Shown here: positions 2,840 through 20,507 of the stretch, piece after piece | Layout: the number at the start of each line of letters is the position of its first letter | How positions within the stretch are numbered: the first letter of the stretch is position 1 | Source: a virus | IMG/VR virus record: IMGVR_UViG_3300023184_000611 | Location: 1-20,572 of that record | Strand: one strand, 5' to 3' | Length of the DNA: 20,572 nucleotides | Notes under the pieces: generated by a model | What the model saw: the letters and a program-made list of their open reading frames with translations, nothing else | Database searches by the model: none | Told to the model about the DNA's origin: nothing | Made by a program: the position numbers and the translations under genes

Positions 2840-5800
2840 ATGGTTTCTCTAAGTAATTCTACACTTACAACGCTTGAGTCAAAATACTTCGATGATTTTG
2901 ATGAAACTAAACAGTATTATCGTATTCTTTTTAGACCAGCAACTTCTGTTCAAGCTAGAGAATTAACACAACTTCAAACAATGATGCAGTTGCAAGTTTC
3001 AAGATTTGCAGATCATGTTTTTAAAGATGGTTCGGTAGTAACTGGCTGTGCGCCATTGATGATTGCTAATGCAGATTTTGTTAGAGTATTAGATTCATTT
3101 AGTTCAAATACAACATACTTTACAAGTATGAGTGATCTTAATGATACTTACACATTGACAAATGGTGTTAACAGCAACACAGCAGTAAGAGCAAGAATTT
3201 ATAAAGCAGTTGCAGGATTCCAATCAAATTATCCAGATACAAATGTTATCTATGTTAGATATCTGTATACAGGTAAAGACGGTTCAAATAATGACGTTAC
3301 ATCATTTGCTAATGGTGATACGCTCTATGTTTATTCAGCAAATCAAAACCCAATCGGACAACTTTCAAATACAAATATTCTATCAACTATTAGCGTATTC
3401 ACAACCAATACTACAGCAAATGCTGCTGTTGGTCAAGGATATCTCGTATCTGTTACTGATGGGCAAATTTACCAAAAAGGATTCATTCAAAAAGTAGACA
3501 AACAGCTTGTCATTGTTAACAAATATACATCTGCTGCTAATAATTCTTTGGTTGGGTTTGAAACTACAGAATCAATTGTAACAGAATATCAAGACACATC
3601 ATTGAATGATAATGCTAATGGGTCTTCAAACTATAATGCACCCGGTGCTCATAGATTAAAACTTGTTCCTACATTGGTTGTAAAATCAAAAACAGATACA
3701 ACAAATAAAGACTTCTTCCCAATTGTTGAATTTGATAATGGCGCAGCTGTTATTTCAGCAGCAGATGCTCAATATGCATCTCTTGGTGATAGGATAGCAA
3801 AAGAAAAATATGAAGAATCTGGCGACTATAATGTCGTTCCTCATGCTGTTGAAACAACAGCACACAGTTCAAACGCTGCTTTGTTTGTCTATAATGCATC
3901 ACCTGGCATCTCATATGTCAAAGGTCGTCGTGTAGAATTGATTGGAACAAGAACAGCAAATGCTGAAAGAGCATCAACAACCGCTATTCAACAAAATAAA
4001 ATTCTAACAGCAAACTATGGCAACTATGTATACTGTAAAGAAGTACTAGGTGCTATGAATTTTGATAAGCTTGGTGAAGTTATTCTGTATGATGCAGCAC
4101 AGTCTGCAATCACTGATCGTGAAGGTCTTTCTGGTGGCGTTACAGGAAACATTGTTGGTTATGCAAATATCAAATCTGTATTGCACTATGACGGAACAAA
4201 AGGCACTGCAGGTGCTCAATACTATGTTTATATCTTTAATATTCGTATGAATGTTGGTAAAGCATTTAAAGATGATGTAAAGAGCATGTATAGTGCAGGA
4301 ACTGGTGGATATAGTAAATTCAAAGCAGATCTTGTTCTTGAATCTAGCAAAGCTGTTATTTACGATTCTACCTTTACACCTATGATCTTTGATACAGGTT
4401 ATAAGGCTGTCAAATCATTGAGCGCACCAACTCGTGATACAACATTCTATTATAGAAAAACAACATCATCTACATTAAACTCTAACGGGTTTATGTCGTT
4501 TACATTAGCTGGCGGTTTGGGTGCAGCAGGTGCAGAGCAACTATATAATACCTCATCAAGAGATTACCAAGTCATTCTTACAGCAAATAGCTATTCTGCA
4601 AATCTTGCTGGAACGGTTAATGTCTATTCTACTGTAAACTCAACAGCATCAAACAGCACTGCATCTTTTGTTACAGGTAGTTCAACAACATTTGAAACAT
4701 CATTTAAGGTTGGCGATACAATTCGTATCTCAAATACTACAGCAGGAACACCTGCAATCTATACAGTAGGTGGAATTGCATCAAATACTTCTATGTATGT
4801 TACTCCAGCCGCAACCGTAAATTCAGTCGCAAACACATACCAAAGATATTATCAAGATGGTTCTATTTTGAATCTTACAGATTCAATGCTTTCTGTAAAT
4901 GCAACATCAAATACATTTACTGTAAGCACAGGCATTACATTCGATTCTGGTTCAGGTAATACTGTTTATGCACAATATCCCGTTGCAAAATCACCGGCAG
5001 TTCAATCAGCAAAAACTGTAAGTAAAAGTCGTCTTGTTAAGATTGATTGTTCTAATAATATAACAACATCTAATGGTCCATGGTGTTTAGGTATTCCTGA
5101 TGTTATTAAGATCAATAATATCTGGGTAGGAACAACTTATGCAAATACAACTTCAGATAGAAGCGCATGGTTTAATTTTGATAATGGACAAAGAGATGAT
5201 AGTTATGATCTTGCAACACTAACTGTAAAACCTGCGTTCAAAACAAACATTACAGGATCAACTAAAATTCTTGTTGATCTCGACCATCTTGTAACAGATA
5301 CTTCTTCTGGTATTGGATATTATTCTGTTGATTCTTATCCTATTAGTAATGATGGAATTACATCAAATAGCACAACCATCAGTGTTGCAGAAATTCCTTT
5401 GTATAAATCAAAGACAGCAAACACAACATATGATCTAAGAAACTGTATTGATTTTAGACCAATAAAAGTAGCAACTGCTAATTCTATTGCAAATACAGAT
5501 TTTGCAAATACTCTTATCACAATCAATCCAGCAACTTCAAATGCTAATACATGGTCAATCAGCACCTATGGTCAATACCATGCTGAAGCAGATTCAAACA
5601 TGACTGCCGACTATGAGTATTATCTAGGTCGTCGTGATCTTCTCTTGTTAGGCACAACCGGTCAATTCACATATACATCTGGCGTTCCAGAAATTTATCC
5701 AAAGAAACCTTTGAATAATTCTGAAGCGACTGTTATTGCTGAAACATTTGTTCCTCCATTCCCATCTCTTACAATGAGAGAAGCAGCAGATGCAAATAGA

Positions 5801-8800
5801 CAAGACCTTGCAACAAGCATTGTATTAACATCTAACCGCCGCTATACAATGCGTGATATCGGCGTTCTAGAAAACAGAATTAATAGATTAGAATATTATA
5901 CTGTTCTTACAACGCTTGAAAAACAAGCAAAAGATATGTCAATTCCTGATGCATCAGGAATTGATAGATTTAAGAATGGAATCTTTGCAGAACCTTTCAA
6001 CAGCCACAATTTAGGTGATGTAAATAACGCAGAATATAGACATGCTATTGATCCAGCACATTCTATTTCTCGTCCAGGATTTAAAAATCACTTTATTGAT
6101 TTTCAATACAATGCTGCAGAATCATCAAACGCATTGTCTATTGCTGTAAAAGGTCCCTATGTTATGTTGGCTTATAACCATGAGCAATTTGCAGCAAATC
6201 CTTATGCAACAAACTATAGAGCATGTACTGAGAAATATTGGACATGGAATGGTTCTGTTTTTCTATCGCCAGAAGCAGACATCTTTACAGACGAAACAAA
6301 TCTTCCAGCAATCAATACAACAATTGATATGGCATCTCCTTTGCAAGATCTTATGGCTGCAGGGGCACTTAACGCTCAAGTATTTGGAAAACAAAGTTCA
6401 CAGTCAACACAAACACAAGCATCTGTTTCTACAAATGTTTCTGGCGGGACAAACATAACAACTGAAACAACTACTACAACTACTAATTCACAAGACATAA
6501 CAAAAATTTCAATTGGTTCTTCTTCTGAAACAAAGACGTTGACTAATGCAGTGGTAGATGTTTCACAGGTTGACTATATTAGATCAATCGATGTTGCTTT
6601 CTATTCTAAAAATCTAAGACCTAATACAAAACTCCATGTATTCATGGATGATGTTAACCTAGATGCATATGTTGCACCTGGAACACTATCTGTAGAATTA
6701 AAGAATTTTACCTACGACAAAAAAGCAAAAGAAATCGTTACAACTACTGCGCCAAAAGGAACTACGTTAGTCGCAAATTCCTCAGGTTGTGTTGCAGGTA
6801 TTGTTACAATTCCTGAAAAAACATTTAGAGCAGGTGATAGAAGATTTATGATCTGTGATGTTGATAATCTTATCACAGGTAAAGATGCTATTCTTACAAA
6901 ATCAATGGGCACATTCCATGCTTCAGGTATTGCGGTAACAAAACAAGCATCTACTCTTACAACAGTAAATCCTAAAATCTTTACACAACAAGGTAAAATT
7001 GTTAATACAGTTGTAACAAAATCTTCTCATGTTGACTTTATTCCTGATCCAGCTCCTGATTACGTTCCCGGTAGTTATAGTGTTGGTGATGGTACTGGCG
7101 ATAAAGGTGATCCTATTGCACAGTCATTCATGGTCACGGTTCCAAGCGATAGTGCAGGACATTTTGTTTCTAAAATTGATCTTTATTTTAAATCAAAATC
7201 AACCGACAAAGGAATTTCAATATTCTTGGTTCCGTTGACTGCAGGTATTCCCGATTTCTCACAAATTCTTGGAAATGCAACACTATTAGCTTCTGAAGTA
7301 AACGTTTCAGATACAGGACAAACTGCAACTACATTTGAATTTGATCATCCAATTTATCTAAGTTCAGGTACTGACTATGCATTTGTTATTGAACCAGAAG
7401 CACATTCACCTGATTACTTGATCTGGACATCGACTGTTGGTGGATTTGATGTATTCACTAATGAACAAGTATATAAGAATCCATATGACGGTGTGTTGTT
7501 TGTTTCAGCAAACAGAGCATCATGGACTGCATATCAATCAGAAGATATTAAATTTAGATTATACAGAGCAAGATTTGTATCAAGTTCTGGTACAGCAGTA
7601 TTGAACAATGAAGCAGACGAATATCTAACATTGACTGGCGTCACAAAGAATTATTCTTCAGCATCAATTACCGTCGGTGATGTTGTATATTCATCTAATG
7701 CAACAGTTGCTAATACAAATGCACTAGCACCTTTTGGTATTGTTCAATACTATGATGATACTACAGGAACAATTATCCTTGATAGTTCAAAAAATGGTGG
7801 GTTTTCTAATGTTGCAGGATCTGAAAGAATTCAAATTCATAGAGTTCAACCATATTCAAATACATCATTAGCATACGCTGGTGCGTCAAATACATTGATT
7901 GCCTCTGCAAATGTTGCATCTGTAGACAACATGAAGTATCACGTAATCACACCTAAATTTGCTACAATGACACCTCAAAATACAAAACTTGATTTTTCGG
8001 TAAAAGGAACTGATACAAGTTATAATTTTGATAGTTCTTGGAAAACTGTAACAAATGAAGGAATGAATGAGTTACTAGATAAAGAACGCATTGTGATGAG
8101 TAAGTCGAATGAAGTTGCATATCTAAGTTCAGCAAAATCTGCAAAAATTCAAATAAATCTTACAACAAATGACTCGCTTGTTTCTCCTGTAATTGACTTA
8201 AGAAGAAAATCATCATTCTATATTGAAAATATTATTAATAATGATTTAACAAATGAGCAGTTTACTTACGGAAATGCTATTGCAAAATATATCTCTAAAA
8301 AGGTTGTTCTTGCAGATGGACAAGATGCTGAAGATTTGAAAGTAGCAATAACTGCATATCGTCCAGTAAATTCTGATATTACAGCATATGCTAAATTCCA
8401 ATCAGCAGATGATCCAGAATCATTTGATTCTAAACTTTGGACAAAACTAACATATTTGAATGATGGCGATGCAGTAACAAGTACCCAAGGTAAACTAGAC
8501 GATTATATAGAATATGAATTTGGTGTTCCTGCTGGTGTTCTTACAACAGAGCCTTTCAATGGACTCACTGCTGTATCAAATACAAATGATACTATTGCAT
8601 TAACAAATAATTTATTTGTAAACAATCAAGTAGTCAAGTATTATACTGCCGCTGGCAACACAGGTATTACTATCGGAAGTTTCACAACTACTACAGCAAA
8701 CAATACATATTGGTATGTTGTAAATGCATCATCTTCGTCATTACAACTTTCGTCTGCACAAGGTGGTTCTGCTCAAAACTTGACTGCATTTTCTAGCAGT

Positions 8801-9022
8801 GAATTTGGGCACTATCTAGAAGCAGTTATTCCAACAGTAATAAATACTGCATACTTGAATCCACAAAGTTCACCAACAGCAAACGTTATAGAATATTATA
8901 ACGCTAGAGGGTCAAGAATGCAATCATTCAAATACTTTTCTATTAAGTTGGTGTATACTTCTTCTGATCGTGTAAATATTCCTAGAGTAAATGATTTGAG
9001 AGCGATAGCATTACAGAAATGA
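2840..9022 (+). CDS. Giant DUF4815-type baseplate/tail structural protein
   Basis: A 2060-residue virion protein. The N-terminus (residues 15-50: KYFDDFDE, YYRILFRPATSVQARELTQL) is the hallmark of the DUF4815 family, found in large structural proteins of marine T4-like phages. Other typical parts are DLRNCIDFRP at 865-874, and a region from 1427 (AQSFMVTVP) through FLVPL and YAFVIEPEAH that looks like a jelly-roll or lectin-like beta domain. A Gln/Thr/Ser-rich linker lies near 1184-1224. A module shared with gp8 sits at 1912-1986. The ATG follows AAGGAA at 2829-2834, a good ribosome binding site. The position after gp8 suggests a gp9/gp10-like role at the baseplate rim where fibres attach; the exact role is inferred. 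No frameshift or break is seen. Confidence 0.82.
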   Translation: MVSLSNSTLTTLESKYFDDFDETKQYYRILFRPATSVQARELTQLQTMMQLQVSRFADHVFKDGSVVTGCAPLMIANADFVRVLDSFSSNTTYFTSMSDLNDTYTLTNGVNSNTAVRARIYKAVAGFQSNYPDTNVIYVRYLYTGKDGSNNDVTSFANGDTLYVYSANQNPIGQLSNTNILSTISVFTTNTTANAAVGQGYLVSVTDGQIYQKGFIQKVDKQLVIVNKYTSAANNSLVGFETTESIVTEYQDTSLNDNANGSSNYNAPGAHRLKLVPTLVVKSKTDTTNKDFFPIVEFDNGAAVISAADAQYASLGDRIAKEKYEESGDYNVVPHAVETTAHSSNAALFVYNASPGISYVKGRRVELIGTRTANAERASTTAIQQNKILTANYGNYVYCKEVLGAMNFDKLGEVILYDAAQSAITDREGLSGGVTGNIVGYANIKSVLHYDGTKGTAGAQYYVYIFNIRMNVGKAFKDDVKSMYSAGTGGYSKFKADLVLESSKAVIYDSTFTPMIFDTGYKAVKSLSAPTRDTTFYYRKTTSSTLNSNGFMSFTLAGGLGAAGAEQLYNTSSRDYQVILTANSYSANLAGTVNVYSTVNSTASNSTASFVTGSSTTFETSFKVGDTIRISNTTAGTPAIYTVGGIASNTSMYVTPAATVNSVANTYQRYYQDGSILNLTDSMLSVNATSNTFTVSTGITFDSGSGNTVYAQYPVAKSPAVQSAKTVSKSRLVKIDCSNNITTSNGPWCLGIPDVIKINNIWVGTTYANTTSDRSAWFNFDNGQRDDSYDLATLTVKPAFKTNITGSTKILVDLDHLVTDTSSGIGYYSVDSYPISNDGITSNSTTISVAEIPLYKSKTANTTYDLRNCIDFRPIKVATANSIANTDFANTLITINPATSNANTWSISTYGQYHAEADSNMTADYEYYLGRRDLLLLGTTGQFTYTSGVPEIYPKKPLNNSEATVIAETFVPPFPSLTMREAADANRQDLATSIVLTSNRRYTMRDIGVLENRINRLEYYTVLTTLEKQAKDMSIPDASGIDRFKNGIFAEPFNSHNLGDVNNAEYRHAIDPAHSISRPGFKNHFIDFQYNAAESSNALSIAVKGPYVMLAYNHEQFAANPYATNYRACTEKYWTWNGSVFLSPEADIFTDETNLPAINTTIDMASPLQDLMAAGALNAQVFGKQSSQSTQTQASVSTNVSGGTNITTETTTTTTNSQDITKISIGSSSETKTLTNAVVDVSQVDYIRSIDVAFYSKNLRPNTKLHVFMDDVNLDAYVAPGTLSVELKNFTYDKKAKEIVTTTAPKGTTLVANSSGCVAGIVTIPEKTFRAGDRRFMICDVDNLITGKDAILTKSMGTFHASGIAVTKQASTLTTVNPKIFTQQGKIVNTVVTKSSHVDFIPDPAPDYVPGSYSVGDGTGDKGDPIAQSFMVTVPSDSAGHFVSKIDLYFKSKSTDKGISIFLVPLTAGIPDFSQILGNATLLASEVNVSDTGQTATTFEFDHPIYLSSGTDYAFVIEPEAHSPDYLIWTSTVGGFDVFTNEQVYKNPYDGVLFVSANRASWTAYQSEDIKFRLYRARFVSSSGTAVLNNEADEYLTLTGVTKNYSSASITVGDVVYSSNATVANTNALAPFGIVQYYDDTTGTIILDSSKNGGFSNVAGSERIQIHRVQPYSNTSLAYAGASNTLIASANVASVDNMKYHVITPKFATMTPQNTKLDFSVKGTDTSYNFDSSWKTVTNEGMNELLDKERIVMSKSNEVAYLSSAKSAKIQINLTTNDSLVSPVIDLRRKSSFYIENIINNDLTNEQFTYGNAIAKYISKKVVLADGQDAEDLKVAITAYRPVNSDITAYAKFQSADDPESFDSKLWTKLTYLNDGDAVTSTQGKLDDYIEYEFGVPAGVLTTEPFNGLTAVSNTNDTIALTNNLFVNNQVVKYYTAAGNTGITIGSFTTTTANNTYWYVVNASSSSLQLSSAQGGSAQNLTAFSSSEFGHYLEAVIPTVINTAYLNPQSSPTANVIEYYNARGSRMQSFKYFSIKLVYTSSDRVNIPRVNDLRAIALQK
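8573..8797 (+). repeat. Second copy of the gp8-shared beta module
   Basis: Encodes residues 1912-1986 of the DUF4815 protein: VSNTNDTIAL, then NNTYWYVVNASSSSLQLSS, then GGSAQNLT. It aligns in order with gp8 residues 401-470, with a few short gaps. It lies between FGVPAGVLTTEPFNGL and the C-terminal EYYNARGSR segment, so it looks like an insert near the C-terminus. Confidence 0.55.
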
Positions 9023-11394: not shown

Positions 11395-12150
11395 ATGAAT
11401 GGTTATGTGTATATTGCCTCGCTATCGAAGGCATATTATAAAGCAGCAGTCAATTCTGCTATTTCATTGCGGGATCATTATCCAGAAGCAAACATTACTT
11501 TGTTTACTCACGAAGTATTTTTGCAAGATAATGACCGCAAATTTTTTAATAATATCATCACAAATATTCCGGTCCACAAACGAGCAAAGATGTGGGGTAT
11601 GGCAAAGACGCCATATGACAAGACACTTTACTTGGACAGTGATACAGAAATTAGATCAGAACGTATTAAAGATGTATTTGACATCTTAGACAAAAATGAT
11701 ATTATGTTTACAAAGATTGTTCCTCATGTTTCTAACACTAGACGCATTGATGATAATAATGATTTACAATATCATGGGGGAGTAATCCTATACAACAATA
11801 AGAAACCAACAATCAAATTGATCAATGAATGGTATGAATTATACGCAGAACAAGTAAAATGTTCTTGGAGTAAATCACAATTTGCTCAGTATGATCCTAA
11901 AATGAAACCATGGGATCAATTCACAATTTGGTATCTGTTACAACAAAAAGAATACAAAAAAATAAAACATGACTTTTTCCCAAATGGCGGAACAGAATGG
12001 AATTTTATTTACCTATTAGAGGAAAATAAGGAAAACAACGTTCCTTACAAAGAACTTGAACAAATCATATATCATTATACTATACCAGGAGAAAAAGTCT
12101 ATGTTGGTAATATCCAAACTCCACCCGGATCTATTACAGATTTTAACTGA
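11395..12150 (+). CDS. DxD glycosyltransferase (GT-A fold, GT8-like)
   Basis: A 251-residue protein with the layout of a GT-A glycosyltransferase. The N-terminal strand and helix (YVYIASLSKAYYKAAVNSAI) begin a nucleotide-sugar binding half. The metal-binding DxD appears as KTLYLDSDTEI, with DSD at 81-83. A later YHGGVILYNN segment (near 126-135) and WDQFTIWYLLQQ (near 184-195) match the acceptor-side pattern of such enzymes. It probably transfers a sugar from a nucleotide sugar in the cytoplasm; donor and acceptor are unknown. No clear ribosome binding site lies in the 17-base gap before the ATG. It is unlike the three paralogous enzymes downstream apart from general fold. Its last 50 bases overlap the next gene. 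Confidence 0.72.
   Translation: MNGYVYIASLSKAYYKAAVNSAISLRDHYPEANITLFTHEVFLQDNDRKFFNNIITNIPVHKRAKMWGMAKTPYDKTLYLDSDTEIRSERIKDVFDILDKNDIMFTKIVPHVSNTRRIDDNNDLQYHGGVILYNNKKPTIKLINEWYELYAEQVKCSWSKSQFAQYDPKMKPWDQFTIWYLLQQKEYKKIKHDFFPNGGTEWNFIYLLEENKENNVPYKELEQIIYHYTIPGEKVYVGNIQTPPGSITDFN
12087..12092 (+). promoter_or_regulatory. Ribosome binding site inside the glycosyltransferase gene
   Basis: AGGAGA lies 8 bases before the ATG at 12101. It is the best ribosome binding site near this gene and supports 12101 over the in-frame ATG at 12056. It sits in the coding sequence of the preceding gene. Confidence 0.65.
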
Positions 12151-12757
12151 GTTTAGCGATTGGTTTTTTGCACGAGATAATTCAGACCTAGAAGCATGTA
12201 TTGGTCTCAATCCTTCTATGAAAAAAGTAGTAATAAAGGATATGGCAGAAAAAGCAACTTCTATGGCATATCTTCAAGAAGCATTGAAGGATCCAAACAA
12301 ATACGGATTCCCACACAATTCATGGGGAATTGAACTTGCACATGACCAAGCATATTATGATAACAAAGAAGTAAAACAGCGCTCACATGACACCAATAAT
12401 AAATTAATGGATTTCTTTGGCGCAAGAAACAATGCGCTTCAGATGTATTATCCTGCAGGGGGATATATCGGATGGCATCACAACGGAAATGCTCCTGGAT
12501 ACAATATTGTTCTCTCATGCAATCCGGGTGCTGATGGCGAGTTTGAAAATTGGGACCACAACAACAATAAGTTAAACGTATTCAAAGATCAGTCAGGCTG
12601 GAACTGTAAGGTTGGATATTTTGGTGATCAGTGGAAGGAACCTGAGAAACTTTATTGGCATTGTGCGAGAACTCGCACACCACGGTTGACTATGAGTTAT
12701 GTTATCTATGATAAGAATTTATGGGAAGATATGGTTGCAGACATCAACTGTGATTGA
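12101..12757 (+). CDS. 2-oxoglutarate/Fe(II) oxygenase-like protein
   Basis: A 218-residue protein resembling the small 2OG-Fe(II) oxygenases common in cyanophages. The core is MYYPAGGYIGWHHNGNAPGY (115-134), then GWNCKVGYFGD (166-176), then YWHCARTRTPRLTMSYV (185-201). H126/H127 with N128 and the distal H187 are the likely metal site, and R195 with S199 fits the 2-oxoglutarate carboxylate site. The usual H-x-D carboxylate is Asn here (H126-H-N128), so the ligand set is unusual. The start at 12101 is chosen for the AGGAGA just before it, giving a 50-base overlap with the glycosyltransferase. It may hydroxylate a protein, sugar or lipid; the substrate is unknown. Its last 14 bases overlap the end of the convergent minus-strand gene. 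Confidence 0.7.
   Translation: MLVISKLHPDLLQILTEFSDWFFARDNSDLEACIGLNPSMKKVVIKDMAEKATSMAYLQEALKDPNKYGFPHNSWGIELAHDQAYYDNKEVKQRSHDTNNKLMDFFGARNNALQMYYPAGGYIGWHHNGNAPGYNIVLSCNPGADGEFENWDHNNNKLNVFKDQSGWNCKVGYFGDQWKEPEKLYWHCARTRTPRLTMSYVIYDKNLWEDMVADINCD
12662..12679. other. GC-rich inverted repeat within the oxygenase gene
   Basis: TGTGCGAG and CTCGCACA are separated by AA, giving an 8-base inverted repeat; as RNA the likely stem is 7 pairs with a GAAC loop. It encodes the conserved C188-A-R-T-R-T193. No T-run follows on either strand, so it does not look like a terminator. Confidence 0.5.
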
Positions 12758-13364
12758 CCTTATGATTGATATAGATGCAAGGATCAACAACTAAGTAGGT
12801 TGAACTATTTGTAAAATTATGTGGGATGATTCTGCGGTCGAGGTATCTGCAGTTTCCCCACATGCTAATAAATGTATCATCACCAAAATGTTCTGCAGTA
12901 TGCTTGAACGGATCAAGTAAAAGCATTTCTGTTAAGTAATCAAAATTATTTCCTTGCCAGAGCATTACAGATGAATTGCCGTATCCTGTGAAAGCATCTT
13001 TATCCTTATTCAATTCAAAAAACTTTTTGTTTTTCCATACAGTATCTACAACATAAAGATCATCATGTGGGTCTTTAATCAAGAAATCAATGTTATCTGT
13101 AAACAAAACATCTAAGTCAAAGTATAGATTGATTCCATCACTAGATATATCTTTTGAGAAAATGAGAACTTTGTTCCACCAGGTATCTAGTTCATAGTGA
13201 TTGATATCAATAAATGTAATTGGAAAATCTGTCTTCTGTTTTGTATCCGTAAGACAAATGAACTTAAATTCATGAGATAAATACTTATTACACATGTTGT
13301 AGAGATTCTCAACATGCTTTATATTATAGCTTGGTTTGACTAATACACAGTAGATATTGATCAT
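12744..13364 (-). CDS. Minus-strand DLD glycosyltransferase, paralogue of the next gene
   Basis: The only minus-strand gene in the window. The chosen start at 13364 gives 206 residues beginning MINIYCVLVKPSYN; a 12-residue longer version exists, but this start aligns with the paralogues. HVENLYNMCNKYLSHEFKFICLTD (16-40, in part) aligns with YVNRLYANLKNAYTGEFNF in the next gene. The DxD is YFDLDVLF (DLD 83-85). GYGNSSVMLWQ (127-137) corresponds to WVNSSFVTW there. It is therefore a GT-A type sugar transferase, probably cytoplasmic, with unknown substrates. Its start codon and the plus-strand start at 13363 share the bases CATG (13362-13365), and its end overlaps the oxygenase gene by 14 bases. 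No strong ribosome binding site or late promoter is seen upstream. Confidence 0.7.
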   Translation of the reverse strand: MINIYCVLVKPSYNIKHVENLYNMCNKYLSHEFKFICLTDTKQKTDFPITFIDINHYELDTWWNKVLIFSKDISSDGINLYFDLDVLFTDNIDFLIKDPHDDLYVVDTVWKNKKFFELNKDKDAFTGYGNSSVMLWQGNNFDYLTEMLLLDPFKHTAEHFGDDTFISMWGNCRYLDRRIIPHNFTNSSTYLVVDPCIYINHKVNHS

Positions 13365-14079
13365 GGTCGTTAATTTCATCACTTTAAAATGGGGAACCAA
13401 ATATGGTCCCGAGTATGTTAATCGATTATACGCAAATCTAAAAAATGCGTATACCGGCGAGTTTAACTTCTATTGTTTCACTGACAATGCAGTAGGCATA
13501 AATACTGAAATTCATATTAGAGATATTCAAGAATTAAGACCCGATCCTACACAATGTTTTACTGTAGAAAAAATATTCCTATTTGACCCAGACATAATTA
13601 AGATGTCTGGCAATTTTGTGTTACTTGATTTAGACATACTCATCATTAATGATTTATATCCATATCTTTCTTCATATAATTTCACTGAAGGTCGGTTTAT
13701 CAAGAATTATTGGAGTAATGTGACTGCAGGAAGTTTATTATCTAAATTTGGATGGAATTGGGTAAATAGTTCTTTTGTAACATGGAAAGATAATCAACTA
13801 AAACATATCATAGATTTTTACTATGATAATAAACAAATAATAGAATTAAAATTTGGTGACTTAGATTTCTTTTTATTTCAGGGTATGAGAAATGAATTGC
13901 ACTATCATCCAGAAAAAATAGTATATTCATACTGTGATGGCGCAGATGATGAAGATAAAGATGCTTATGCTTATAGAAAAGATTATTCAATCGTCTTATA
14001 CAATACATCCCATGGGAGGGGAGTAGAACTACATGAAGCTAGAGATTGGTCAAGGGATATTTGGACGAGATTTGGATGA
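13363..14079 (+). CDS. DLD glycosyltransferase, first tandem copy
   Basis: 238 residues from the ATG at 13363, chosen because MVVNFITLKWGTKYGPEYVN aligns from the first residue with the second copy at 14667. A TTG six bases earlier is less likely. About 28 of the first 42 residues are identical between the copies. The metal-binding motif is VLLDLDILI (DLD 89-91). WVNSSFVTW (133-141) and YNTSHGRGVELHEARDW (213-229) are shared family blocks. It is likely a GT-A sugar transferase acting in the cytoplasm on a glycan or lipid; donor and acceptor are unknown. Its 3' end overlaps the next gene by 47 bases in the +1 frame, the same layout as in the second copy. No good ribosome binding site precedes the ATG. 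Confidence 0.74.
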   Translation: MVVNFITLKWGTKYGPEYVNRLYANLKNAYTGEFNFYCFTDNAVGINTEIHIRDIQELRPDPTQCFTVEKIFLFDPDIIKMSGNFVLLDLDILIINDLYPYLSSYNFTEGRFIKNYWSNVTAGSLLSKFGWNWVNSSFVTWKDNQLKHIIDFYYDNKQIIELKFGDLDFFLFQGMRNELHYHPEKIVYSYCDGADDEDKDAYAYRKDYSIVLYNTSHGRGVELHEARDWSRDIWTRFG

Positions 14080-14677
14080 AGTCTATGGCGACCTATTTGA
14101 AAAAATTCGTATACCATCAATAGCAAAAGCGTTATATATTTTAATAAGAACAACTAGCAGATCAGTAGTAGCTGCAAAAGATACTCACTGTGTTGATATT
14201 ATTTTAAAAAATACTACTAATTTAAAAAAGGTTGCCGTGATAGGAGCAAAACTTCCTATTACCTATATGATAAGAATTCAAAATCGTTATCCAGAGGTAA
14301 AATTTATAACTATCAATGATAGTGAAATGATGGTGATGAGTGAAGAGTATCTTAAAGGACTATTCAACTATACAAATTATAATATAAATCCTATTTTCAA
14401 TGATCTTTCAGAACACATTAAAGATTGTGATCTTGTGATATATCCAGAAACAGAATTATTAGTTCCTTTTAAATACCTTAGATATAAACATACAATGCCA
14501 TATTTTTGTGCTAACTTTATCTATTATCCAAACATAGTAAATACAAATGAGATATATAGTGAAGAAGATTTATTAGAAATTTGTGAAATGAAAAAGCCAA
14601 TTGTTTGTGGGTCAAGAAGGGTAATATTTTCTGGAAACTCTAAAAAATATTATTATGCATTAGGCTATGATAGTTAA
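14033..14677 (+). CDS. Unknown protein paired with glycosyltransferase, first copy
   Basis: 214 residues; I do not recognise a family. The pattern suggests an alpha/beta Rossmann-like core: LKKVAVIGAKLPITYMI (64-80), VKFITIND (89-96), then IKDCDLVIYPETELLVPFKY (129-148). These blocks align in order with KKVCLIS and KCDTVILHDFQFMAPFDVLP in the gene at 15328-15783. The only good start is the ATG at 14033, which lies in the codons for the ELHE block of the upstream glycosyltransferase. The related gene starts at the equivalent ATG. The overlap suggests coupled translation and a joint function. There is no signal peptide or membrane segment. A SAM- or nucleotide-binding role is possible, but no glycine-rich loop is clear. 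It overlaps the next gene by 11 bases. Confidence 0.6.
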   Translation: MKLEIGQGIFGRDLDEVYGDLFEKIRIPSIAKALYILIRTTSRSVVAAKDTHCVDIILKNTTNLKKVAVIGAKLPITYMIRIQNRYPEVKFITINDSEMMVMSEEYLKGLFNYTNYNINPIFNDLSEHIKDCDLVIYPETELLVPFKYLRYKHTMPYFCANFIYYPNIVNTNEIYSEEDLLEICEMKKPIVCGSRRVIFSGNSKKYYYALGYDS

Positions 14678-15371
14678 ATTTATTACATTAAAATGGGGCA
14701 CAAAATATAGTCCTAAATATGTCAATAGGTTGTATAAATCTATTAAAAAAACATATTCAGGTGACTTTAAATTTTATTGCTATACAGATGATGATACCTA
14801 TTTAGATAGTTCTATCTGTGTAGGAAACATAACAGATTTGCCACACTTTGATACCAATGTATTTACTCTAGTAAAAATGGATCTATTCACACATCTTCCT
14901 TTTGATGGTCCTTATGCATTTTTAGATTTAGACGTTTTAATTTTAAAAGATTTAAAACCTTACTTTGATGAGTATCAATTTAAAGAACCTAGAATAGGAT
15001 ACTGCTATTGGACAGATCCTAACAGAGTATACAATTCATACCATAAAGGTGATTGTTATGTGAACAGTTCTTTCTTGACTTGGGACAAAGATCAATTCAA
15101 TTATGTCTGTAATATATACGAAGAAAACAAAACGTTGATAAACTATAAATTTAAATCATTTGACAAATTTTTGTTTTACTTTTGCAAGTTAAATTATCAT
15201 CCAAAAGGTATTATGTATAGCTATAACTTTGGTGCAGAATATCCTGATAACATAGAAAAACAAAAATTTTTAGAAGATCAACATATAGCAATCTTTAATA
15301 CATCGAATGAAAGAGGAATAGAATTGCATGATTGCTCTGGGTGGGCCAAAAGATATTGGGAATGTTTTTAA
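14667..15371 (+). CDS. DLD glycosyltransferase, second tandem copy
   Basis: 234 residues starting MIVKFITLKWGTKYSPKYVN, a close paralogue of the preceding enzyme over its whole length. DLD lies at 87-89 (AFLDLDVLIL); VNSSFLTW is at 132-139; the C-terminal block is FNTSNERGIELHDCSGW (210-226). The region between the blocks has diverged strongly (FDGPYAF against MSGNFVL; CYWTDPNRVYNSY against NYWSNVTAGSL), as expected if acceptor specificity changed. The ATG lies within the end of the previous gene, an 11-base overlap. It is probably a cytoplasmic sugar transferase acting with its neighbours on one glycan; the substrate is unknown. Confidence 0.74.
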   Translation: MIVKFITLKWGTKYSPKYVNRLYKSIKKTYSGDFKFYCYTDDDTYLDSSICVGNITDLPHFDTNVFTLVKMDLFTHLPFDGPYAFLDLDVLILKDLKPYFDEYQFKEPRIGYCYWTDPNRVYNSYHKGDCYVNSSFLTWDKDQFNYVCNIYEENKTLINYKFKSFDKFLFYFCKLNYHPKGIMYSYNFGAEYPDNIEKQKFLEDQHIAIFNTSNERGIELHDCSGWAKRYWECF

Positions 15372-15783
15372 AAAACTACAAAAATTTGAGGTGTTTCTTC
15401 GAATCTATAAGTTTGATGAGATATTAGAAAAGATAGATGAATGTAAAAAGGTATGTCTCATAAGCCCAACTATACCTTATGATATAGCATATGCTCTTTC
15501 AAATTTCTATAATTGTCAATTCTATCTATTATACAATCATCCTAGTTTTCAGTTTGTAGAAGATGATTTTGCAAAACTAAAAAACTTACAGCTTATTAAC
15601 TTGAATATCTATACAAAAGAAACTAATAAATATATTGAAAAATGCGATACAGTAATTCTGCATGATTTTCAATTCATGGCACCGTTTGATGTTTTACCTT
15701 ATAATTTAAAAAATAAAAGAATAATTACTTTCTATGATGATACTCGTGAATTTTGTGATGAAGAAATAAGACAGAATTTTTGA
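15328..15783 (+). CDS. Unknown protein paired with glycosyltransferase, second copy
   Basis: 151 residues, shorter than its apparent paralogue (214); the C-terminal portion is missing after FYDDTREFCDEEIRQNF. KKVCLISPTIPYDIAYALSN (40-59) and IEKCDTVILHDFQFMAPFDV (103-122) align with the blocks KKVAVIG and IKDCDLVIYPETELLVPFKY of the first copy. The ATG sits inside the ELHD codons of the upstream glycosyltransferase, giving a 44-base overlap in the +1 frame. No other ATG gives this frame; a GTG at 15391 is the only reasonable alternative. Function is unknown. The gene is very AT-rich, and the shorter C-terminus may reflect truncation when the transporter genes were gained, but that is inference. 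Confidence 0.55.
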   Translation: MIALGGPKDIGNVFKKLQKFEVFLRIYKFDEILEKIDECKKVCLISPTIPYDIAYALSNFYNCQFYLLYNHPSFQFVEDDFAKLKNLQLINLNIYTKETNKYIEKCDTVILHDFQFMAPFDVLPYNLKNKRIITFYDDTREFCDEEIRQNF

Positions 15784-15784
15784 T

Positions 15785-17230
15785 ATGATATTTTATTTGT
15801 TATGGTTACTTGCGGGAACTTTCTATGGGTTCATCATAGGATTGATTCCAGTTGCTGGCGCAACAACAGCTCTTATTACTATTTATTCTTTCATAGATGT
15901 ATTCAGAGCAGACCCTTATACTTTAGTTGTATTCACAACAGCAATTGTTGTCTCATCGACTATAGGTGATTCTTTCTCGTCAGTCATGCTTAACGTCCCA
16001 GGTGCAGGTGGGTCTGCTGCTACTATGGTCGACGGGTTCCCATTGGCGAAGAAAGGCGAAGGTGCAAGGGCACTGTCTGCTGCTATCACAACATCCGCAA
16101 TCAATGGATTCATCTGGGGAATTCTTGTCTTTTCGTTCCTGCCATTCTATGCATCGGCAGTCATGTATTTTGGAATCCCAGAACAGCTTGCTTTCATGTT
16201 TTTGGCATTTGCGTCTGTCTGTTTTGTTTCAAATCACTATTGGGCAAGAGGTATCTTTAGTTTAGGATTAGGTATTTTCTTAGGACTCATTGGACAGGAT
16301 CCTCACACAGGTTCTGCACGACTGACGGGCGGATGGGATTACTTAGGCAACGGAATCCAAATCATCCCGATCCTTGCCGGAGTCCTTGCTTTCCCAGAAC
16401 TTATTGAACTATACATAAACAAGTATGAGACAGTAAAGTTCGAGATAGAGAACTATAAATCTCAAGTCGTTCAAGGTATCAAAGATTCATTCATCCATTG
16501 GAAAGAATCGCTCGCAGGAGGAGCAATTGGAGCTTTTATCGGAATACTCCCTGGAATTGGTGGCGCTATTGCTGATTGGGTGTCTTACAGTTTCACTGTG
16601 GGATTAAACAAGAACGAAACCTTTGGTAACGGAAACATCAAAGGTGTTATAGGATGTGAAGGAGCAAACAACTCACAGAAAGCAACAGGTTATATTCCAA
16701 CAGTATTGTTTGGTATACCAGCAGCACCTTTCGAAGTTGTCATTATGAGTTTATTTGTCTTAGTAGGCATAGAACTCGGCACACCGGCATTGTTGAAAGA
16801 TACAATGTTCTTTGACACTTTACAGTATTCATATCAAGCATCCTTATTTCTAACCTACATCATTAGTATAATCACTATTCGATACATTGTCAAGATATTT
16901 CTTATCCCAATCGATATTTGGTTCTGGTCACTTGTCGCTTTAATTGTTTGGAGCTGTGTTCAGTATACAGGATACGCTGAAGATTACTTGATGATAATTC
17001 TATGCACATTGCTAGGACTTTCTTTAAAATATCTCAAGATGAGTCGTGCAGCTTTCATCATAGGATTTGTCTTGAGTGACAGAATCGAAAAATTGTTATA
17101 TCAATACTTGACATTATTTGATTGGTCTGATATTATAATGAGACCAGTGAGTGTATCATTGCTTGTTGCAACAGCCGGCGCAATGATATACGGCATTTTC
17201 TACAGTAAAATAAAGGTGAACTACACATGA
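15785..17230 (+). CDS. tctA: TctA-type large permease of tripartite tricarboxylate transporter
   Basis: A 481-residue membrane protein of the TctA family, the large permease that works with a TctC binding protein and a small TctB subunit to import tri- or dicarboxylates across the inner membrane. The two halves carry the related loops GLIPVAGATTA (19-29) and GILPGIGGAIADW (253-265). Other family marks are NVPGAGGSAATMVDGFPLAKKGEGARAL (within 70-97), a central PELIELY segment, EGANN (292-296) and PTVLFGIPAAP (305-315). About a dozen hydrophobic segments can be seen. The N-terminus is roughly 20 residues shorter than in usual TctA and no better upstream start exists. The ATG follows the previous stop by one base with a poor ribosome binding site. 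GC content is higher than in the glycosyltransferase genes. No TctB is seen nearby. Confidence 0.88.
   Translation: MIFYLLWLLAGTFYGFIIGLIPVAGATTALITIYSFIDVFRADPYTLVVFTTAIVVSSTIGDSFSSVMLNVPGAGGSAATMVDGFPLAKKGEGARALSAAITTSAINGFIWGILVFSFLPFYASAVMYFGIPEQLAFMFLAFASVCFVSNHYWARGIFSLGLGIFLGLIGQDPHTGSARLTGGWDYLGNGIQIIPILAGVLAFPELIELYINKYETVKFEIENYKSQVVQGIKDSFIHWKESLAGGAIGAFIGILPGIGGAIADWVSYSFTVGLNKNETFGNGNIKGVIGCEGANNSQKATGYIPTVLFGIPAAPFEVVIMSLFVLVGIELGTPALLKDTMFFDTLQYSYQASLFLTYIISIITIRYIVKIFLIPIDIWFWSLVALIVWSCVQYTGYAEDYLMIILCTLLGLSLKYLKMSRAAFIIGFVLSDRIEKLLYQYLTLFDWSDIIMRPVSVSLLVATAGAMIYGIFYSKIKVNYT
17212..17218 (+). promoter_or_regulatory. Ribosome binding site of the TctC-like gene
   Basis: AAAGGTG lies 8 bases before the ATG at 17227, inside the end of the permease gene. 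It suggests the binding protein is made efficiently in its own right as well as by coupling through the ATGA overlap. Confidence 0.55.
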
Positions 17231-18288
17231 GAATTTTAGCATCAATCTTTGCCCTTATGTTGTCTGCAACAGCAGCAATGGCTGATTATCGTCTAATTGT
17301 TCCACAGAGTCCAGGTGCCGGAACATCTGTATGGGCTGCGATCTTCGCAAAGCATATGTCTGAAGCAATGAAAGAGAAGTTTATTGTTGAGCATATCCCA
17401 GGTATCAATGATATCCCAGGATTCAACAAGTTCCATAATGAACTGCGCTTTGATGACAAGACAATCATGGTTGCTCATGGTGGCAATGCTGAATCTTTCT
17501 TGGTTGATAGGGTCGACTACAACTATGCAGATTATGAACCAATTGCGACTATGAGCCTTAATACCATTGTCACAAGAAACAAGACAGTTGATATTGAGAA
17601 AGACAAGATTCGTATGGCACACAACTCAGGCGTCAATCCTGACATGATGGCAATCATTATGTTGGTCTGTGGTCCTCAGAAAGACGTGACTGCATATCTA
17701 GATTGTTATAAGAAACGTATTATCTATGTTAAAGGTATGCCAGGATCAGAATCACGCCTTGCTTTTCTGCGAGGTGAGTTGAATACTATCCGTGAGACCT
17801 ATGTCGCACATGAGAAATTCTTTGCAGAAAAAATTCGTTTCAATGAAGTGATTGATTGGTTCAATCATGGAGTCTATGACTTTAACACAGGCAAGATTGT
17901 AGATGATCATAACTTTAAGAATGTAAAGACATTTGCTCAGGTATACAAAGATCGATGGAAAGTCGAACCGTCAGGTGATTTCTATGAAGCCTATGCTTTG
18001 ATGAAGAATTACCGTGATGTTTTGCAGAAAGCATTGTTTGTAAACAAAGGCAATCCTAATGCAGAAAAACTGCGCCAAGGTGTTGCATACATGTTGACTA
18101 ACCTAGAAGCAAAGAAAGCATTTGAAGCAGATATTGGCGATTATGATTGGTTTGTTGGCAAAGATTTGACTTTAGTCATGGGTAAGTTAAAGACACAAAT
18201 CACTGAAAAGAAATTAAAGACATTGGTCAAGATCTCCAATGAAGGATTCGGATTTGAAACAGTTTATAAACCAGAGCTTTTAAAATGA
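17227..18288 (+). CDS. tctC: TctC-like periplasmic substrate-binding protein
   Basis: 353 residues with a clear Sec signal peptide: MRI, then the hydrophobic LASIFALMLSATA, with likely cleavage after AMA at residue 19. The mature start, DYRLIVPQSPGAGTSVWAAI, follows the TctC/Bug pattern of a first beta strand ending in VP, a glycine-containing loop and a helix. FIVEHIPG (52-59) matches the second strand. It should capture a carboxylate in the periplasm and deliver it to the permease encoded directly upstream; the genes overlap as ATGA. It is slightly longer than usual (about 320-330 residues) and the rest is diverged, so the ligand cannot be read from sequence. A phage-encoded exported binding protein implies a Gram-negative host and action before lysis. 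Confidence 0.75.
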   Translation: MRILASIFALMLSATAAMADYRLIVPQSPGAGTSVWAAIFAKHMSEAMKEKFIVEHIPGINDIPGFNKFHNELRFDDKTIMVAHGGNAESFLVDRVDYNYADYEPIATMSLNTIVTRNKTVDIEKDKIRMAHNSGVNPDMMAIIMLVCGPQKDVTAYLDCYKKRIIYVKGMPGSESRLAFLRGELNTIRETYVAHEKFFAEKIRFNEVIDWFNHGVYDFNTGKIVDDHNFKNVKTFAQVYKDRWKVEPSGDFYEAYALMKNYRDVLQKALFVNKGNPNAEKLRQGVAYMLTNLEAKKAFEADIGDYDWFVGKDLTLVMGKLKTQITEKKLKTLVKISNEGFGFETVYKPELLK

Positions 18289-18896
18289 GTGAGCGTAAAT
18301 TTAAGTATATCTTTGTCACAGGTGCACCGGGTTCCAAATGGAGCTCGGTCGCCCGAACAATGTGGCATAGTCCTGACGTAGATCATTCTGACAATAAGAA
18401 TGAATACAAAGAAGGTAATGTGAGACATCAAGGCGCCTATTGGGGTCCTGGTATGGAATATGGTAATGACTTTAATGCAATGCATCTTTTCTCTAAAGAA
18501 GAACTTGAGAAAGAATTTGATAAACCATTTTCAGGCAAAGGTGTGCGGATCATCAAGTCACATGATTTTGCACACAATCTAGAATTCATTAGGGAAACAT
18601 GGCCTGAATGTCCTATTGTTATGTGTTTGAGAGGCACAGATGCATGTCTTGGATGGTGGGTTAAAGCAGGTGGGTTCGATATTACCTATCCTAACTATTC
18701 AGAATACAAAAACTTTAAATTGATGGGCATGGCAATTGAAAATCAAAATAAGGGTATTCACGACTTCCTTGATATTAAACCATCATACTACACACCATCG
18801 AGTTATAACTTGAGCAATTTGCTTGGCATTGAATACAGTAAGATAGAACAAGATTTTAGCAAAGACGATATAGACGTCTATTTGAACTGGAGTTAA
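18285..18896 (+). CDS. Sulfotransferase-like P-loop protein
   Basis: 203 residues starting in an ATGA overlap with the binding protein gene. The N-terminal strand and loop YIFVTGAPGSKWSS (8-21) resembles the 5'-phosphosulfate loop of PAPS-dependent sulfotransferases. RIIKSHDF (88-95) and CPIVMCLRGTDACLGWW (109-125) match the core strands and the 3'-phosphate region, where R117 would be the key Arg. Similar proteins occur in cyanophages, often labelled sulfotransferase. If active it would move sulfate from PAPS to a hydroxyl on a glycan, lipid or small molecule. A kinase-like P-loop protein is the alternative, since the loop lacks a standard GKS/T. The C-terminus (YLNWS) is short and without further domains. 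Confidence 0.55.
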   Translation: MSERKFKYIFVTGAPGSKWSSVARTMWHSPDVDHSDNKNEYKEGNVRHQGAYWGPGMEYGNDFNAMHLFSKEELEKEFDKPFSGKGVRIIKSHDFAHNLEFIRETWPECPIVMCLRGTDACLGWWVKAGGFDITYPNYSEYKNFKLMGMAIENQNKGIHDFLDIKPSYYTPSSYNLSNLLGIEYSKIEQDFSKDDIDVYLNWS

Positions 18897-18899
18897 ATT

Positions 18900-19526
18900 A
18901 TGAAAATCTATGGATTAATCAAGGAAGCATCTGATGAATTGTTGTGGAACTTTACCCATGATGTTCATAAATTGATTCTTGACAAATACTTTAGCACCTA
19001 TTGGAGAGGTGACACAAAGGACTTTAGTCATACAGGACATGAGGTTCTTTCTAGAAAAGTAAAAGAACACAACCCAAAGAATATCTTAGATGTAGGTTGT
19101 GGGTATAATGACTATAAGAAATTCTTTGATGGATATGAGTTTGTAGGCATTGATCCTTATAATGATAAGGCAGATATCAAGCAAGGAATCTATGAGTATT
19201 ATCAAGAAAATAAAGAAAAGCAATTCGATGCAATCCTTGCTTTGGGTTCTATCAACTTTGGACCTTATGACAAGATTTTGCAAGAAGTAGAATGGATCGA
19301 TAGATTGACAGCACCCGGTGGTCGTTCTTACTGGCGTGTCAATCCAGGAATTCCTCATAAGACACTGAAAGAATTTCCTCTCGTTGACTTGATTGAATTC
19401 TTTGATTGGACAAAAGAATTTATTGAAAAACTTGCAGAAGTTTTTGGGTATGAGATTGAAGAATATGCTGAGGAAACAAATCATAACGGAGACAAGCGTA
19501 TATATTTCTGCTTTCATAAACTATAA
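18900..19526 (+). CDS. Class I SAM-dependent methyltransferase
   Basis: 208 residues. Motif I is NILDVGCGYNDY (61-72); the acidic end of strand 2 is FVGIDPY (81-87, D85 binding the ribose); the strand 4 region is FDAILALGSINFGP (109-122); and the post-core loop is RLTAPGGRSYWRVNPG (135-150). This is a complete small Rossmann methyltransferase. The substrate is unknown; by position it may act on the same glycan or product as the transferases upstream, or on a virion component. A GGAG lies 7 bases before the ATG. The stop codon is inside the late promoter box at 19522-19529, so this gene closes the cargo block. Confidence 0.75.
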   Translation: MKIYGLIKEASDELLWNFTHDVHKLILDKYFSTYWRGDTKDFSHTGHEVLSRKVKEHNPKNILDVGCGYNDYKKFFDGYEFVGIDPYNDKADIKQGIYEYYQENKEKQFDAILALGSINFGPYDKILQEVEWIDRLTAPGGRSYWRVNPGIPHKTLKEFPLVDLIEFFDWTKEFIEKLAEVFGYEIEEYAEETNHNGDKRIYFCFHKL

Positions 19527-19892: not shown

Positions 19893-20507
19893 ATGGAACT
19901 TACATCAGAAATGATCTTAGAAGAATTTCCTCATGCAAAGCCTGAAATTGTAGAAGCACTTTGCAATGCGCTTCCTGTATTGGAAGAATATGGAATAGAT
20001 ACACCTCTTCGCTTGGCACATTTTCTTGCACAGACATCTCATGAGTCAGGTGGATTCCGTGCGGTTGAAGAAAATCTAAACTATAAAGCAGAAACACTTA
20101 CAAAGATCTTCCCAAAGTATTTCCGTGATAAGGATCCAAATGACTATGCAAGACAACCAGAAAAGATTGCTAACTTGGTATATGGTGGGCGCATGGGTAA
20201 TGGTTTAGCTGAATCGGGTGACGGTTATCGCTATCGTGGTCGTGGGCTTATTCAATTGACAGGACATGATAACTACAAGCGCTTTGCCGATGGCATTGAG
20301 TCAACATTAGAAGAAGCAGTTGCATATTTGACAACTCCTGAAGGTGCAGTTGAGTCAGCAGCTTGGTTCTGGGCAAATAACGGTTTGAACGAGATCGCTG
20401 ATACTGATGACGTTACAAAAGTGACTAAGCGTATCAATGGCGGAACAATCGGTTTGGCAGAACGTGAAGCTCACACAGAAGCTTTCAAAGAAATGTTAGG
20501 AGTGTAA
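19893..20507 (+). CDS. GH19-family endolysin (chitinase/lysozyme-like)
   Basis: 204 residues of the glycoside hydrolase 19 type used by many phages as endolysin. LAHFLAQTSHESGGF (41-55) carries the likely general acid E51; E59/E60 in RAVEENLNY is in the region of the second acidic residue. GYRYRGRGLIQLTGHDNY (111-128) is the family signature, and AAWFWANNGLNEIAD (156-170) plus KRINGG (179-184) complete the fold. It should cleave the peptidoglycan glycan strand to release progeny. No signal peptide or membrane segment is present, so it needs a holin, which is not in this window. Its place among structural genes could also mean a virion-associated lysin. Only the catalytic domain is present, with no cell-wall binding domain. 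Confidence 0.85.
   Translation: MELTSEMILEEFPHAKPEIVEALCNALPVLEEYGIDTPLRLAHFLAQTSHESGGFRAVEENLNYKAETLTKIFPKYFRDKDPNDYARQPEKIANLVYGGRMGNGLAESGDGYRYRGRGLIQLTGHDNYKRFADGIESTLEEAVAYLTTPEGAVESAAWFWANNGLNEIADTDDVTKVTKRINGGTIGLAEREAHTEAFKEMLGV

Follow-up and report, generated by a model that had tools for sequence, protein, structure and literature searches.

The window analyzed here, the 20,572-base record of an uncultivated virus (IMG/VR record IMGVR_UViG_3300023184_000611; a marine virus of bacteria), contains two successive gene pairs, each made up of a glycosyltransferase (GT) gene and a second gene, here called the partner, that begins within it in the +1 frame. The four genes lie on the plus strand in the order GT1, partner 1, GT2, partner 2. 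They probably represent two ancient, paralogous, glycan-modifying units in which a GT and a partner derived from a methyltransferase are inherited together, the overlap between the two genes was short ancestrally, and the partner of unit 2 no longer has catalytic activity. GT1 (bp 13363–14079) encodes 238 amino acids, partner 1 (P0002; bp 14033–14677) 214 when read from ATG 14033, GT2 (bp 14667–15371) 234, and partner 2 (P0004; bp 15328–15783) 151. The original prediction, which was made from the letters of the window without database searches, had placed these four open reading frames (ORFs) correctly, and its overlaps of 47 bases in unit 1 (bp 14033–14079) and 44 bases in unit 2 (bp 15328–15371) are confirmed; partner 1 and GT2 also overlap, by 11 bases (bp 14667–14677). 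Below, W1 and W2 denote units 1 and 2 of the window, and L-numbers denote related loci elsewhere.

The partner proteins and their predicted fold

The sequence blocks that had been quoted as common to the two partners are present, and the proteins resemble one another more than chance would allow, as expected of the paralogs they were proposed to be. They are 26% identical (25 of 97 residues; E 5e-7 as a single comparison), and their Smith-Waterman score is 100, whereas 2000 shuffles reach at most 71; removal of the first 15 residues leaves the score unchanged, and again no shuffle reaches it. In addition, a hidden Markov model (HMM) of 17 family members, from which the unit-2 lineage was excluded, finds partner 2 at E 1.9e-17 among 15,286 ORFs.

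Structure prediction suggests that both partners have the core of class I S-adenosylmethionine (SAM)-dependent methyltransferases and that partner 1 has the full fold. The AF2 model of partner 1, built from an alignment of 14 sequences, has a predicted local distance difference test (pLDDT) score of 84 and a predicted template modeling (pTM) score of 0.79. Its strands (residues 66–70, 90–94, 112–116, 134–137 and 157–162, and a final pair at 188–199/202–212) follow the order of the seven-stranded Rossmann-like fold that ends in a strand pair, and its structural matches agree; the likeness to class I enzymes of known structure (BioC, NodS, SgvM and others in the PDB) extends over about residues 33–214. 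Foldseek gives 272 PDB matches with E ≤ 0.001 (best E 5.8e-6), and the 50 matches listed all have the methyltransferase fold and are nearly all named methyltransferases. VIA-align superimposes the model on BioC with Z 15.4 and a root-mean-square deviation of 2.7 over 162 residues, and the best viral structural match is an uncharacterized phage protein (E 3.4e-14). The model of partner 2 (pLDDT 72.9) has the same strands 1–5 and lacks the final pair. Its PDB matches are mostly methyltransferases as well, but they are weaker and include other Rossmann proteins; a single one has E ≤ 0.001, and the best VIA-align Z is 10.3. The two partners are thus predicted to have a common core and not different folds. 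The nicotianamine-synthase-like methyltransferases appear in both sets of structural matches (CntL with partner 1, MtNAS with partner 2), but they have no sequence match to the partners.

Profile comparisons connect the partners to a wider family. Profile A5, that of the partners, matches profile A9, that of a methyltransferase-like family of marine phages, at E 1.8e-7, with an invariant Glu and an invariant Pro in alignment; these are E141 and P145 of a Glu-x-x-x-Pro motif found in all 17 members, and partner 1 has both the Glu that stands in the A9 motif SCEHM and the Pro four residues on. A9 relatives retain SCEHM and acidic residues, and they include the "putative methyltransferase" Mosig_00090 of Pelagibacter phage Mosig EXVC030M (MT647606.1). 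The link between Mosig_00090 and the window partners is by profile-profile comparison only, and unlike them it has no GT annotated next to it; its neighbors are annotated as a carbamoyltransferase, an aminotransferase and cofactor enzymes. The A9 profile matches Pfam methyltransferase models weakly and below threshold, and in a PDB sequence search it picks up designed TIM barrels, some methyltransferases and spermidine synthases (E 0.018–0.68). Two further classes join by the same method (A5 to the insert class, E 9.4e-15; A8 to A9, E 4.4e-10).

Partner 2 is predicted to be a pseudo-methyltransferase, conserved though degenerate. Among 19 aligned members the invariant Glu is replaced by Gln solely in W2 and in its counterpart in the second unit of L008 (L008_2). 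The acidic residue that follows strand 2, which most members have in place or one residue away, is Asn in these two; all seven of their clade mates read SDHP at this position, and W2 and L008_2 read YNHP and YNNP, respectively. Both proteins end ahead of the last two strands. The two are nevertheless 50% identical, and their nonsynonymous divergence (dN) of 0.41 against a synonymous divergence (dS) of 1.51 indicates that the gene is under purifying selection.

The glycosyltransferases and the recurrence of the unit

GT1 and GT2 are 41% identical (97 of 238 residues; E 9e-60) and hence paralogs, as had been claimed. They are probably enzymes that attach sugars: the two aspartates of the GT-A type DxD motif (D87 and D89 in L015 numbering) are invariant in the 20 GTs of alignment A6, and both proteins match PHROG 1962, "glycosyltransferase" (GT1 E 1e-4, GT2 E 0.0023). 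This match is weak and covers only about the first 100 residues, with the C-terminal ELH-x-A-x-x-W outside it; a bacterial relative matches the same PHROG at E 4.6e-17. In GT1 the DxD lies within LDLDILI and the C-terminal motif is GRGVELHEARDW. A PDB sequence search with the GT profile returned a single match, an ARF-like protein at E 0.99. A distant third member of the family lies on the minus strand ahead of GT1 (bp 12744–13364; stretch tested 12747–13376; PHROG 1962 E 2.4e-8, A6 HMM E 1.1e-10), and a similar minus-strand GT of L008 (5221–5838) lies between the two units of that locus, so the order of the block has been shuffled.

Scans of viral contigs for GT relatives gave 13 loci and then 79 (the second from the best 80 of 93). 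They contain 75 distinct viral GT genes with a complete 3′ end and under 97% alike, and a methyltransferase-like gene lies directly behind 45 of these, 43 found by script and two (L015 and L057, whose frames are open too far upstream for it) added by hand; in the case of one further GT, that of L067, the sequence ends 34 bases behind the gene. The survey of related phages that had been proposed as a check thus finds the pair repeatedly, although the 45 of 75 measures the recurrence of related genes and is not the outcome of an unbiased search, since the A8, A9 and insert profiles were built from genes in that position. Two trees, one with 29 GTs and one with 23 partners, show the same four clades with the same partner-bearing members in each, and GT and partner distances are correlated (Mantel r 0.824; 0 of 20,000 permutations). 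GT and partner have therefore been inherited together as one evolutionary unit.

The original prediction described the two units as a tandem duplication. This does not hold in the sense of a local or recent copy: W1 and W2 belong to separate clades, and each has its own orthologs (L003, L005, L006, L008 and L042 for W1; L008 unit 2 and L010–L028 for W2), so the split between them is older than these phages. The companion claim that the two proteins must be made together fares no better, as the family includes GTs without a partner (among them GT2 of L005 and GT1 of L010, L011/L013 and L012).

GT1 and partner 1, as well as the GT of L015 and a partner from L012, gave no match when 50,697 phage records were searched by tblastn, and no locus was confirmed in related-locus searches with partner 2 alone or with A4, a partner alignment of three rows. 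Among 299 genomes in a sample of one phylum the A5 profile had 0 matches (there was no positive control) and the A9 profile matched six, G002 included. The two matched loci that were read, in two bacterial genomes of 6–7 Mb, carry SCEHI-type A9 relatives (L182 1372–2046 and L185 1339–2046), each of which adjoins a convergent gene that looks by eye like one for a MurG-type glycosyltransferase.

Overlap, partner start sites and alternative readings

For the most part the long overlap appears to follow automatically from the conserved sequence of the GT C-terminus. In both units the partner ATG does arise, as had been noticed, from the codons of an ELH-[DE] motif, in which a CAT codon followed by GA creates ATG in the +1 frame; the further step of taking the overlap as evidence for co-production is not supported. 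When the GT amino acids were kept fixed and synonymous codons redrawn according to each gene's own usage, an ATG followed by an open +1 frame was expected with a probability of 0.71 in unit 1 and 0.75 in unit 2, so the overlap is not beyond chance. Over 28 GT genes the combination was observed 12 times against 14.1 expected, and the same ATG occurs in two GTs without a partner (GT2 of L005 and GT2 of L042).

The start sites available in other units tell a similar story. The survey covered 27 units of the A5 and insert classes (26 flagged by profile plus L015, with the near-copies L007 and L014 counted and L081 left out). Nine of them (L005_1, L006_2, L007_2, L010, L012, L014, L015, L016 and L043) can start only 8–14 bases ahead of the GT stop, that is, after the long overlap, a finding that had been named in advance as one that would speak against the idea that the overlap was copied and kept. 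Three can start only at 23 (L028) or 44 bases (W2 and L008_2), and 15 have several options, which in 12 cases include one of 11 bases or fewer. Four sister units of W2 (L010, L012, L015 and L016) overlap by 8–14 bases only, and common inheritance of a long overlap is therefore not the most economical explanation. Residues 1–9 of the partner 1 model have pLDDT below 50 and the first helix begins at residue 14, which corresponds to an alternative TTG start (bp 14072–14074) 8 bases ahead of the GT1 end. In W2, ATG 15328 is the partner frame's only ATG, GTG or TTG before the GT2 stop, and a GTG lies 19 bases past that stop. The long start may be real in unit 2, which has no better one, and perhaps, given an unusually strong Shine-Dalgarno sequence, in unit 1.

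Several results weigh against the reading we favor, and they are best considered with the alternatives to which they lend support. One of these, which we regard as rather improbable, sees in the long overlap a device kept by selection, which was copied with the unit and forces co-production of two proteins that form a complex. The co-inheritance of GT and partner and the absence of any other start before the GT stop in unit 2 and L008_2 fit it, and unit 1 adds further evidence. There the Shine-Dalgarno-like GGGAGGGGAG (bp 14014–14023) upstream of ATG 14033 has a duplex energy of –10.7 kcal/mol, against –8.2 for the best of 15 other starts in the window, a strength reached by 1% of synonymous redraws (in a test of 26 genes, W1 and L003_1 gave the only values under 0.1), and between W1 and L003 the GT1 gene has no substitutions in the 47 bases of the overlap and 75 in the 670 elsewhere. 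Strong Shine-Dalgarno pairing and an unchanged overlap mean that ATG 14033 may be used in the W1/L003 lineage. On the other hand, the 111-base run over the junction that is identical in these two (bp 13996–14106) exceeds the overlap on both sides and may be due to recombination, and the upstream start of W2 has an ordinary Shine-Dalgarno sequence (77% of redraws are as strong). The chance expectations and the nine short-start units above also weigh against such a device, as does synonymous identity, which in long-overlap tails is 44/60 against 793/1279 elsewhere but falls to 30/46 without the W1–L003 pair; short-overlap controls give 25/44 against 680/1088. The 23-base class (L011, L026 and L028) gives 30/38 against 269/547 from three non-independent pairs. 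Dual-coding constraint was accordingly rejected as a general feature of the overlaps, there being no clear excess outside W1–L003 and the 23-base class. A programmed +1 frameshift that fuses GT and partner would explain why all 26 of the profile-flagged A5 and insert units have their partner in the +1 frame, which in many of them stays open over about 50 bases; it was rejected as very improbable, because L005_1, L010, L012 and L016 have a proper ATG at the GT stop and a closed +1 frame upstream of it, and no natural fusion occurs among the loci read.

Other objections concern the partner itself. It has no significant match in Pfam, PHROG, NCBIfam or the PDB sequences (0 matches in the last with the partner profile), and single members of the family reach E 0.007–0.1 to unrelated PHROG and Pfam models. 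Motif I of class I SAM methyltransferases is GxGxG, and this canonical form was not found in the aligned members: the family consensus in this region is VxIIGSxxP, with VAVIGAKLP in partner 1 and VCLISPTIP in partner 2, and the "IGS..P" form presumably resembles motif I of MtNAS and CntL. Identity to known class I enzymes is 4–12% in the VIA-align rows listed. The direct A5–A8 profile comparison is weak (E 0.045), so the widest grouping of the family hangs on A9. The missing GxGxG and the clear degeneracy of the partner 2 lineage would suit the view that all of the partners are non-catalytic GT subunits without SAM chemistry, which we consider unlikely; but all 17 of the members that lie outside the unit-2 lineage retain the Glu/Pro motif, the fold predicted for partner 1 is complete, A9 relatives keep their motif and acidic residues, and some GTs of the family do without a partner. 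As for co-inheritance, the Mantel correlation drops to 0.174 for GT distances above 0.4, and the region is mosaic: the GT1 proteins of L003 (2671–3387) and L005 (352–1068) share a stretch of about 117 identical residues, after which they diverge sharply; this is a recombination breakpoint inside the GT gene. That GT and partner are no more than chance neighbors in a gene-rich variable region is nonetheless the least probable of these explanations, given the congruent trees and the recurrence of the pair behind so many viral GTs.

Proposed function and gene neighborhood

If the reading of two ancient units with a methyltransferase-derived partner is correct, the GT would add a sugar to an acceptor, either a virion tail protein or a host surface glycan; virion or host-surface glycans are suggested because the unit adjoins tail genes and a GH19-like lysin gene. 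Partner 1 would most likely methylate the sugar or its acceptor. Partner 2, without the C-terminal strands and key residues, would most likely survive as a helper without catalytic activity, such as a scaffold for GT2 or partner 1 or a regulator of either. Judging from the relatives, translation of the partner would be coupled to GT termination through an ancestrally short overlap of 8–14 bases; the long +1 frame would then be a side effect of the GT C-terminus, although unit 2, and likewise the lineage of unit 1 and L003, may have come to use the upstream ATG. A stronger version, in which these are two-component phage GTs with an obligate methyltransferase-derived partner and the partner of unit 2 is a regulatory or scaffolding pseudo-methyltransferase started inside the GT gene, seems doubtful to us.

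Pairing of a GT gene with a methyltransferase-like tailoring gene is a known kind of arrangement, of which this unit appears to be an uncharacterized variant; among the papers listed by full-text literature searches none dealt with this particular gene pair. The analysis puts a predicted fold on an unnamed family that recurs behind a GT in many marine virus contigs without a significant Pfam, PHROG or NCBIfam match. The claim about the overlap largely dissolves, and a conserved His-Asp or His-Glu motif that makes upstream +1 ATGs is a warning not to take gene overlaps for regulation. What is left, the predicted pseudo-methyltransferase, is of greater interest, and it leads to a testable prediction, that one partner is an active methyltransferase and its neighbor a dead copy retained by selection.

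The tail protein of the window (bp 2840–9022) has counterparts in many tailed phages, the best match being that of Rhizobium phage RHph_I1_18 (42.6%), and the lysin gene is at bp 19893–20507 (PF00182 E 7.9e-6). Ahead of the minus-strand GT, bp 12104–12757 encode what looks by eye like a 2-oxoglutarate/Fe(II) oxygenase; it has no significant Pfam match and is related to three places in Phage C48C1 (best 28.8%). Directly behind partner 2 (bp 15785–18288) are genes for TctA (PF01970 E 9.5e-86) and then, by eye, for a TctC-like periplasmic receptor, which has no significant Pfam match. Next come a gene that appears sulfotransferase-like by eye and has no family match (bp 18285–18896) and one for a second, more ordinary methyltransferase (bp 18900–19526; PF13489 E 9.5e-5, below cutoff), both of which may be further tailoring genes of the same block. 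Transporter genes are found in relatives as well: L006 has a TctC gene (PF03401 E 2e-20) and L016 a sodium:solute symporter gene (PF00474), and by eye the last partner of L005 is followed by a gene for a TctA-like protein and L010 has a sodium:solute symporter. An earlier study reported tctA in viruses as a domain match in SUP05 viral contigs (PMC4164917).

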